Part shown: piece by piece, positions 2,479 to 5,316 of the stretch | How positions within the stretch are numbered: position 1 is the stretch's first letter | How the letters are laid out: each line of letters opens with the position of its first letter | Assembly (NCBI GenBank): GCA_029821265.1 | Contig: JALGTR010000011.1 | Location: 1 to 33,418, forward strand | Source: Candidatus Zipacnadia bacterium | Lineage (GTDB): Bacteria; Armatimonadota; Zipacnadia; Zipacnadales; UBA5352 | Length of the DNA: 33,418 nucleotides | Direction of reading: 5' to 3' | Program-made: the position numbers and the translations under genes | The notes under the pieces: generated by a model | What the model saw: only the letters and a program-made list of their open reading frames with translations | Database searches by the model: none | Told to the model about the DNA's origin: nothing

Positions 2479-3042
2479 TTGATCACCCCCAACGATTTTC
2501 GGCCGGGGCTGACGATTGAGCTGGACGGCCGTGTGCTGCAGGTGGTGAAAGCCGACCACCACAAGCAGGGCCGCGGCGACGCCATCGTCCGAACCCGGCT
2601 GCGTGACCTTGAGACGGGCGATCTGTTCAACAAGACATTCCGCTCCAACGAGAGCATCGAGACCGCGCATGTGGATCGCCGCGACTTCCAGTTTCTCTAC
2701 AGCACCGGGGAGACGTACGTCTTCATGGATATGGAGACGTATGAGCAGCGCGAGCTGACGAAGGAGACTCTCGGCGAGAATGTGAAGTGGCTCAAGGAGG
2801 GCGAAACGGTCCAGTTCGCTCTCTACAAGCAGAACATCGTCGATATGAGCGTAGGCAAGACAGTTGACCGTCGCGTGGTGCAGACTGATCCGGGGTTGCG
2901 AGGGGACACCGCGCAGGGCGGAAGCAAGCCCGCAACGATAGAGGGCGGTGCGGTGGTGCAGGTGCCGCTATTCGTCCAGACGGGCGACGTCATCCGCGTT
3001 GACACGCAAAGTGGCGAGTATGTCAGCCGCGTCGAGAGCTGA
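2479..3042 (+). CDS. efp: Translation elongation factor P
   Basis: This 187-residue protein matches EF-P in length and in its three beta-barrel domains: KOW-like N-terminal domain to about residue 65, middle OB domain, and C-terminal OB domain. EF-P binds stalled ribosomes between the P and E sites and speeds peptide bonds at polyproline. The start is TTG at 2479, chosen because a strong AAGGAGG (2464-2470) sits 8 bases upstream and the family N-terminus (ITPNDFRPG) begins right there; the next in-frame Met is far inside. The domain I loop reads KQGRGDA, with Arg32 at the tip where E. coli has its modified lysine in PGKG. The gene leads a closely packed run with accB 17 bases downstream. Confidence 0.97.
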   Translation: MITPNDFRPGLTIELDGRVLQVVKADHHKQGRGDAIVRTRLRDLETGDLFNKTFRSNESIETAHVDRRDFQFLYSTGETYVFMDMETYEQRELTKETLGENVKWLKEGETVQFALYKQNIVDMSVGKTVDRRVVQTDPGLRGDTAQGGSKPATIEGGAVVQVPLFVQTGDVIRVDTQSGEYVSRVES

Positions 3043-3059: not shown

Positions 3060-3539
3060 ATGCAGATAGACAGGGACGCGGTGCAGCGGGTTATTGAGCT
3101 GCTCGCCGAATCGGAAGCGGGCGAGATCGAGATCGAGGACGGCGAGACCAGCGTCCGGGTCCGATCCGCCGCGGCGGTCTTCGACGAGTCGGCTGCTTCG
3201 CCCACGCCTGCCGGCGAGGAGCTGCCCGAGGGTGGGGCGCCGGGGCTGGAGCCGGTTGAGGCGCCGATGAAGCCGGAGGAACCCGAGGGCAAGATCGAGT
3301 ACGTCGTCGCCGGCCTGGTGGGACTGTTCCACCGCGGTCGCACGCCCGATGAAGAGCCGATGGTCGAGATCGGCGACAACGTCTCCGAGGGCCAGGTTAT
3401 CGGGACGATTGAGGCGCTGCGCAAGCTCACCGATGTGGTGTCCACTGTCGACGGGGAGGTCGTGGACGTGCTGGTGGCGGACGGTGAGGCGGTGCAGTAC
3501 GGGGACCGGCTCTTCGCCATCCGCGTCGAGGAGGCGTGA
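3060..3539 (+). CDS. accB: Biotin carboxyl carrier-like protein lacking the usual biotinyl lysine
   Basis: This 159-residue protein has the AccB layout: N-terminal helix and strand (residues 1-35, ending SVRVRS), an acidic Pro/Ala/Glu linker (40-75), and a biotinyl/lipoyl domain (78-156). AccB carries CO2 on biotin for acetyl-CoA carboxylase in fatty acid synthesis. The attachment hairpin normally reads EAMKMMNEI. Here an ungapped alignment gives EALRKLTDV, with Arg121 (CGC, 3420-3422) at the biotinyl-lysine position and Lys122 next to it. The following segment (DGEVVDVLVADGEAVQYGDRL) is typical. The protein may be unbiotinylated, modified on the shifted Lys122, or a regulatory homologue like the plant BADC proteins. 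accC lies downstream with one small gene between. Family assignment is firm; carrier activity is doubtful. Confidence 0.88.
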   Translation: MQIDRDAVQRVIELLAESEAGEIEIEDGETSVRVRSAAAVFDESAASPTPAGEELPEGGAPGLEPVEAPMKPEEPEGKIEYVVAGLVGLFHRGRTPDEEPMVEIGDNVSEGQVIGTIEALRKLTDVVSTVDGEVVDVLVADGEAVQYGDRLFAIRVEEA

Positions 3540-3543
3540 GGGC

Positions 3544-3909
3544 ATGGCGGACAGGCGACGGCGCACCGGATTCGTGCTGGTTGAGCTGCTCCTGGTCGTC
3601 GCGATCATCGCGCTGCTGTTAGCGGGCTATTACGGGCTGAGCAACCGGCCCGCCGCGAGCAACGAGGTGAAGCAGTCGGTGCCGGCGCGCTCGATTCAGA
3701 AGGCGAAGAGCGTCGAGTGCGCCAACAACCTGAACCAGTTGCGCCAGCTCATCCAGATCGAGGTCATCGAGACAGGGGAGTATCCACAGCAGTTCAACCC
3801 TGGCAGCCAGGGCGGGATCGGCACCTGCCCGGTCTCCGGCAAGCCGTACCAGTACGATCCGAAGACGGGCCGGATCTGGTGCACAACGCCCGGCCATGAG
3901 AACCTGTAG
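3544..3909 (+). CDS. Small prepilin-like protein (type IV pilin/pseudopilin N-terminus)
   Basis: This 121-residue protein starts at the ATG 4 bases after accB. Its N-terminus is a class III prepilin signal: basic leader MADRRRRTG, then FVLVELLLVVAIIALLLAGY. Cleavage would fall between Gly9 and Phe10, leaving Glu at mature position 5, as prepilin peptidase requires. The hydrophobic helix is followed by a polar spacer and a short globular tail with Cys53, then a two-cysteine end (TCPVSGKPYQYDP, RIWCTTPGH) typical of small type II secretion/competence pseudopilins. It would be inserted in the inner membrane and could join a pilus or pseudopilus. No other pilus or secretion gene is in the window, so its position inside an acetyl-CoA carboxylase operon is odd. 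It may be an orphan minor pilin. Confidence 0.82.
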   Translation: MADRRRRTGFVLVELLLVVAIIALLLAGYYGLSNRPAASNEVKQSVPARSIQKAKSVECANNLNQLRQLIQIEVIETGEYPQQFNPGSQGGIGTCPVSGKPYQYDPKTGRIWCTTPGHENL

Positions 3910-3954: not shown

Positions 3955-5316
3955 ATGTTTGACAAGATTCTGGTGGCCAATCGCGGTGAGATCGCCTGTA
4001 GGATCATCCAGGCGTGCCGCGAGCTTGGCATCGCCACCGTCGCCGTCTACTCGGAGGCGGATAGAGACGCCCTGCACGTTCGCATGGCCGACGAGGCCAT
4101 CTGCATCGGCGCAGCGCCGAACACATCGAGTTACCTCAACGCCGCGAATATCCTCAGTGCCGCGGTTATCGCCGGCGCCGACGCCATCCATCCCGGCTAC
4201 GGCAACCTGTCGGAGGACCCGAACTTCGCGGAGGCCATCGAGGGCTGCAAACTCACCTTCATCGGTCCGTCCGCGGAGGCGATCGCGCGCGTGGGCAATA
4301 AGGCCGAGGCCCGCAAGACGATGCGCGAGGCCAACGTTCCCGTGGTGCCGGGCAGCCTCGATGGGATTCGCGACGCTGCCGAGGCGAGGGAGATTGCCCG
4401 CGAGCTTGGCTATCCGGTGATGGTCAAGGCCGCCGGCGGCGGCGGTGGACGCGGGATTCGCATTATTCACAATGACGAACAGATGGCGGAGGCGGTTGAG
4501 CGGGCGTCGTCGGAAGCGAGGAGCGCCTTCGGCAACGGCGATCTTTACATCGAGAAATACATGGAGGATCTGCGCCACGTGGAGGTGCAGATCCTCGCGG
4601 ACAAGCACGGCAACTGCATACACCTCGGCGAGCGCGACTGCTCGGTGCAGCATCGGCATCAGAAGCTGCTGGAGGAATCGCCGTGCCCGGCGGTGAGCAG
4701 CTCTTTGCGGCGCCGGATGGGTGAGGCCGCGATCCGCGCGGCGCAGGCGGCCGGATACACGAACGCCGGAACGGTCGAGTTCCTGCTTGATACGCGCGGG
4801 CGGTTTTACTTCATCGAGATGAATGCACGACTTCAGGTTGAGCATCCGGTGACTGAGATGCTTACCGGCATCGACATCGTGCGCGAGCAGATTCGCATCG
4901 CCGCCGGCGAGCGCCTGCGGCACGAGCAGGGGGGAATCTGGTTCGAGGGCCACACCATGGAGTGTCGGATCCTCGCCGTCGATGGCGATCGGGGCTTTAT
5001 CCCCTCACCGGGCGAGATTACGCGCTGGGAGTTCCCCTCCGGGCCCGGCATCCGCGTGGACAGCGGGGTGGCGGCCGGCTCGGTTGTCTCAACGCACTAC
5101 GATCCGATGATCGCGAAGGTCATCTGCTGGGACGAGGACCGCGATAGCGTGATTGAACGGATGCGGGCGACCCTGCGCGGCAGTCGGATTGAGGGCATCA
5201 AGACGAGCATTCCGTACCACCTGCGATTGCTGGGCAACGCCTACTTCCGACGTGGAGAGGTCACGACGCAGTTCATCCAGCGGCGGCTGCCGATACCTCA
5301 GGGAGGCGGACGGTAA
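3955..5316 (+). CDS. accC: Biotin carboxylase subunit of acetyl-CoA carboxylase
   Basis: This 453-residue protein matches biotin carboxylase end to end. The ATG at 3955 gives the family start (MFDKILVANRGEIA) after a GGAGCGGAG stretch; a start at 3922 would add an unusual extension. Biotin carboxylase uses ATP and bicarbonate to carboxylate biotin on AccB. Functional residues align with E. coli AccC almost one to one: Lys116, Lys158 before the GGGGGRG ATP-grasp loop, His208, Lys237, Glu275, Glu288, Arg292, Glu296 and Arg338. Several near-invariant flanks differ: GYGNLSED for GYGFLSEN, ECRILAVDGD for ECRINAEDP, and QHRHQK for QRRHQK. The enzyme thus looks active but diverged, next to an AccB lacking the biotin lysine. 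The carboxyltransferase genes accA and accD are not in the window. Confidence 0.95.
   Translation: MFDKILVANRGEIACRIIQACRELGIATVAVYSEADRDALHVRMADEAICIGAAPNTSSYLNAANILSAAVIAGADAIHPGYGNLSEDPNFAEAIEGCKLTFIGPSAEAIARVGNKAEARKTMREANVPVVPGSLDGIRDAAEAREIARELGYPVMVKAAGGGGGRGIRIIHNDEQMAEAVERASSEARSAFGNGDLYIEKYMEDLRHVEVQILADKHGNCIHLGERDCSVQHRHQKLLEESPCPAVSSSLRRRMGEAAIRAAQAAGYTNAGTVEFLLDTRGRFYFIEMNARLQVEHPVTEMLTGIDIVREQIRIAAGERLRHEQGGIWFEGHTMECRILAVDGDRGFIPSPGEITRWEFPSGPGIRVDSGVAAGSVVSTHYDPMIAKVICWDEDRDSVIERMRATLRGSRIEGIKTSIPYHLRLLGNAYFRRGEVTTQFIQRRLPIPQGGGR

Follow-up and report, generated by a model that had tools for sequence, protein, structure and literature searches.

We found that the AccB encoded beside accC in the window (the whole 33,418-nucleotide stretch of Candidatus Zipacnadia bacterium DNA analysed here) has an arginine at the position where AccB proteins take biotin on a lysine, while a second AccB, encoded elsewhere in the same genome assembly, has an intact site. 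Judged from its sequence by this defining residue, the accC-linked protein, here termed AccB-R, is no functional carrier. Probably it is one product of an ancient AccB duplication and has become, in the operon, a non-carrier subunit with a scaffolding or regulatory role towards AccC, in the manner of the plant BADC proteins, with the unlinked copy (AccB-K) carrying the biotin.

The accC-linked AccB and its genomic setting

The accB-R open reading frame encodes 159 amino acids and holds VIGTIEALRKLTDVV (coordinates of this and the neighbouring features are given in Table 1). The original prediction that Arg121 takes the place of the biotinylated lysine in the hairpin EALRKLTDV was confirmed by the translation and by the codon, CGC. 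The next residue is Lys122 (AAG, 3423–3425) and the preceding one is Leu120 instead of methionine, so that the MK pair required for biotinylation is missing from the hairpin turn. Since CGC and AAG differ at three bases, no single miscall within 3420–3425 would account for Arg121, and sequencing error was rejected as an explanation because the loss of the lysine also recurs in separate assemblies, including every linked copy sampled from the window's order (see below). In profile searches AccB-R matched PF00364 with 41.7 bits (cut-off 22.1) and the BCCP family TIGR00531 with 93.5 bits, which is below the curated cut-off of 115.2. This second match spans nearly the whole protein and includes its N-terminal part.

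Table 1. Positions in the window of AccB-R, its attachment site and the genes around it
Feature	Position	Strand	Basis and remarks
efp, elongation factor P	2479..3042	+	Profile matches; 17 nt upstream of accB; this position is conserved in much of the phylum
AccB-R, the accC-linked AccB paralogue that lacks the lysine for biotin	3060..3539	+	Translation, PF00364, TIGR00531, orthologues, fold
Biotinyl hairpin EALRKLTDV, residues 118–126	3411..3437	+	Translation, alignment; model strands 113–119 and 122–127
Arg121 (CGC), biotin-attachment position	3420..3422	+	Codon; alignment with other AccBs, where this Lys is invariant
Small prepilin-like single-TM protein, GFVLVE motif, C-terminal CPVSGxxYxYDP..GxxxCTTPGH	3544..3909	+	Conserved between linked accB and accC
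accC, biotin carboxylase	3955..5316	+	Profile matches; no other was found in the assembly

The plus-strand gene order is aroQ, a pepP-like peptidase gene, efp, accB, the prepilin-like ORF, accC, nusB and xseA, and the short gaps between efp and accC (4 to about 45 nt) make co-transcription of these genes likely. The peptidase, EF-P, AccB, the pilin-like protein and AccC were also assigned by profile searches. As originally noted, accC lies close to accB on the same strand, with the pilin-like ORF between them. Of 54 loci aligned from related genomes, 52 have a pilin-like gene immediately after the linked accB, as does most of a wider sample, and its C-terminus (CPVSGxxYxYDPxTG...CTTPGH) recurs at this position across Armatimonadota. 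Several members are devoid of the prepilin GFxxxE motif and keep the TM segment and the cysteine-containing C-terminus; the member in G059 looks lipoprotein-like and is still found between accB and accC. The protein went undetected in a few lineages that retain AccB (G052, G092–G095, G205 and G206), and a fold search returned weak pilin matches only. At the head of the cluster, the EF-P loop-tip residue that is modified in E. coli, Lys34, has Arg32 as its counterpart in the window (KQGRG), and the sampled loci, which were not deduplicated by genome, are evenly split there, 30 with R and 30 with K. A genome search for EarP, whose control was uninformative, gave no match.

Both genes that the original prediction had proposed to look for in the genome, a second accB (expected there to encode EAMK) and birA, were found. 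The second AccB, with an intact EVMKLFNEI, is encoded on contig C114, unlinked to accC, and judged by sequence the genes next to it are those for homoserine dehydrogenase and threonine synthase; the single BirA is a partial ORF cut by the end of contig C309. A PF03099 match on contig C181 was discarded as a BirA candidate, as it reads as an LplA-type lipoate ligase with gcvH adjacent. The remaining PF00364 matches, named from sequence, are a lipoyl E2 (L002), GcvH (L006) and RND/HlyD adaptors (L004, L005, L007, L008). One AccC was found in the assembly, and the sole carboxyltransferase found is an AccD-AccA fusion of 603 amino acids with zinc-ribbon-like cysteines near its start (G000 contig C5, L226:1512-3323); with these as the full set detected, a second carboxylase system was rejected as the reason for the extra AccB. 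The inventory thus points to two AccBs for one biotin carboxylase, only one of them able to carry biotin, in an assembly whose completeness (92.6%, in 362 contigs) makes a further, unseen AccC or AccB possible.

Two AccB copies across Armatimonadota

Among public genomes, MAGs of candidate division WS1 / Candidatus Zipacnadia are the closest to that of the window, and Zipacnadia is treated within Armatimonadota (PMC10290634). A first sample took in 61 genomes, starting with the family and widening to the phylum, and almost every one of them has two AccB genes. The unlinked copy has lysine at the attachment position in 58 of 58 cases. The linked copy, which occupies an efp-accB-pilin-like-accC cluster, has another residue in 46 of the 54 sequences aligned (lysine in 8; otherwise R 26, G 14, S 3, T 1, D 1, H 1). 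None of the 36 linked copies sampled within the window's order has lysine; they have R, G or S there and in every case leucine instead of the preceding methionine. Arginine is also present in each of the seven other genomes of the same family where a linked copy was found. As for genomes with no linked copy detected, four (G003, G005, G010 and G030) were also without a detected accC, which indicates missing sequence, and in G022 the contig stops just past the pilin-like ORF; G058 was found to have a linked copy after all, with ETLG.

It had been suggested that conservation of the Arg-Lys pair be checked among relatives. The loss of the lysine proved to be shared, but both the arginine and the lysine after it vary: the linked set has K, R, N, Q, M, V, L or I directly after the attachment position, with lysine in 20 of the 54 copies and in only about half of those from the window's order. 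Extending the sample over the phylum gave 116 linked copies in total (for a few of which accC was not seen in the stretch covered). Of these, 70 have a residue other than lysine (R 31, G 25, T 4, D 4, S 3, N 2, H 1). The 46 that keep lysine belong to outer Armatimonadota, often with ESMK, and may yet accept biotin, so this paralogue probably did not start out as a non-carrier. In other phyla, accC-linked AccBs have lysine in 49 of 49 cases.

In a first tree, built with the attachment column left out, the unlinked AccBs formed one group (SH-aLRT 96). The linked set was set apart from the rest with a support of 97 in a larger tree but 12 in the first, so that its monophyly is likely but not proved. 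About 14–16 changes between Lys and non-Lys were counted on the linked-copy tree, although the alignment is short and the strongly supported branches force only three. A reasonable reading of these sequences is that accB was duplicated early and that the operon copy then lost its lysine several times independently.

Two further differences were seen in the alignments. The BCCP 'thumb' is shortened in several outer linked copies (e.g. G047–G050, G052, G055, G057 and G058 in L222), some of which keep the lysine, hinting that contacts were altered before the biotin site was lost. In unlinked AccBs of the window's order (e.g. L201:1679-2131) the usual V-E-Y-G-Q is replaced by V-E-A-D-Q, whereas the linked copies keep V-x-Y-G; it looks as if the paralogues had split the ancestral contacts.

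Constraint, fold and the probable role of AccB-R

Close pairs of linked copies gave dN/dS values of 0.17–0.34, a sign of purifying selection and within the range of the Lys copies (0.08–0.48). The N-terminal segment with its invariant Glu22, the VGxF strand, the G and V of the core and the C-terminal V-x-Y-G are all kept in the linked copies, while the attachment residue is free to vary. AccB-R is predicted to adopt the flattened beta-barrel fold of BCCP: in the AlphaFold model the barrel is confident (block-mean pLDDT 93–98 over residues 81–159) with Arg121 at the hairpin turn. Among solved structures it is matched best by Arabidopsis BCCP1, by E. coli BCCP (1bdo; rmsd 1.0 Å, TM 0.89 over the target) and by the BCCP of the E. 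coli BC-BCCP complex 4hr7. The structural alignments show 28% identity with 1bdo and 33% with Arabidopsis BCCP1, and a sequence profile of the linked copies found the BCCP of 4hr7 as its best match, over almost the full length.

The loss of the lysine in the linked AccB and in all relatives sampled from its order suggests that this protein probably helps to assemble or regulate the enzyme instead of carrying biotin. Probably, AccB-R is free of biotin in vivo and bound to AccC and/or AccB-K, with an assembly or regulatory role. The unlinked AccB-K (C114, EVMKLFNEI) would then be the biotinylated carrier, and AccB-R, whose normal site could not accept biotin, would act as a non-carrier subunit. 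Presumably made together with AccC, and having both a BCCP-domain fold and the AccB N-terminal segment, it would bind AccC and perhaps AccB-K too, and in binding may control how acetyl-CoA carboxylase is assembled, its subunit stoichiometry or its activity, in parallel to plant BADC. In E. coli, an AccC dimer binds four AccB, and an imbalance between AccB and AccC disturbs biotinylation and fatty-acid synthesis (PMC3896788). Among the three readings initially put forward, a BADC-like regulatory subunit appears to fit best with the second AccB, the single AccC, the conservation and the selection described above. The idea of a replaced AccB held in one part, namely the existence of a second AccB with MK here and in nearly every relative, and failed in the other: both copies are retained under selection, so the second did not displace the first.

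The main rival reading makes the linked AccB an autoregulator of the accBC transcript, or a decoy tuning the availability of BirA or AccC, through its N-terminal segment. The N-terminus of E. coli AccB autoregulates accBC transcription, and the effect of AccB/AccC balance on biotinylation reported in the same work lends this rival further backing (PMC3896788). The N-terminal segment of the linked copies is conserved and their gene sits inside the operon that would be controlled; the barrel, however, is conserved as well as the N-terminus, and a purely N-terminal role needs no barrel. We consider this explanation unlikely. We give still less credence to a tether in which AccB-R and the pilin-like single-TM protein hold AccC at the cytoplasmic membrane, comparable to the envelope docking of plant acetyl-CoA carboxylase. 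The near-constant position of the pilin-like gene and the retention of its TM segment where GFxxxE is lost would suit such a role, and plant ACCase is reported to be docked to a membrane (PMC7712654). Against this, a pilin-like insertion would leave the C-terminal domain extracytoplasmic and away from AccC, the gene order may be simple operon inheritance, and the protein has weak fold matches and is undetected in the lineages listed above despite the presence of AccB.

That AccB-R is a carrier biotinylated on the shifted Lys122, or on another lysine, is very improbable. Lys122 itself and the lysines at the same position in relatives are compatible with it, but many non-Lys relatives have N, Q, R or M at this position (e.g. 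EALRN in G008, G012 and G028), a variability on which the shifted-lysine reading fails; moreover, MK has become L-R/G/S order-wide in genomes that have a canonical carrier. Least credible of all is a decaying, functionless duplicate, for although a residue essential for biotin carriage was lost repeatedly, the gene is kept beside accC with an intact frame in nearly all genomes sampled from the phylum, and this retention together with the dN/dS values led us to reject a pseudogene.

Comparison with plant BADC and other carboxylase subunits

Plant BADC proteins are BCCP homologues that carry no biotin and are reported either to act as a glue between BC and BCCP or to be inhibitory; the choice between an inhibitor and an assembly glue is disputed, and BADC is described as unique to plants (PMC11926652). 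AccB-R resembles them as a BCCP homologue lacking the biotinylated lysine that is found beside a biotinylatable BCCP and a biotin carboxylase. BADC proteins are recognized as BCCP homologues (25–30% identity to BCCP) without the biotinylation motif, in place of which AccB-R has EALRKL, and a biotinylatable BCCP is encoded in the same organism, here the EVMKLFNEI AccB of C114. AccB-R differs in being bacterial, encoded in an accBC operon and equipped with the bacterial AccB N-terminal segment, and in belonging to a distinct set of Armatimonadota paralogues of which many outer lineages keep the lysine. As the linked copies form an Armatimonadota set in the AccB trees, an origin independent of plant BADC is expected. 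On the likeness in sequence and predicted fold, we regard AccB-R as BADC-like in anatomy; we do not class it as BADC, and common descent is not expected. The broader proposal, of a bacterial acetyl-CoA carboxylase with a dedicated non-biotinylated AccB as a structural or regulatory subunit, which arose through a duplication spanning the phylum and repeated site loss in the operon copy as an analogue of BADC independent of plants, possibly with a co-encoded membrane-anchored partner, seems to us slightly favoured. No report of a bacterial BADC-like or non-biotinylated AccB was found in the literature searched, which covers few subscription journals.

With the AccB/BCCP family of TIGR00531, AccB-R shares a nearly full-length match that includes the N-terminal segment, the fold seen in 1bdo and 4hr7, and the proximity of accC, and it departs from that family in scoring under the curated cut-off and in the absence of the attachment lysine and the methionine before it. 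The non-catalytic subunit of actinobacterial acyl-CoA carboxylases of the Thermobifida fusca type is not a BCCP paralogue and belongs to a different carboxylase architecture. That subunit is reported to help in assembling a bacterial biotin-dependent carboxylase (PMC7835884), and a 'glue' comparison with such a non-catalytic subunit has been drawn for BADC (PMC11926652).

Bacteria thus appear to repeat the plant experiment, the operon AccB having lost its site in seemingly several lineages and the unlinked AccB having kept it, and the question of inhibitor versus glue becomes testable with small bacterial proteins. The same pattern is a warning for annotation, in that many Armatimonadota probably have their biotin carrier in an AccB other than the one encoded near accC.
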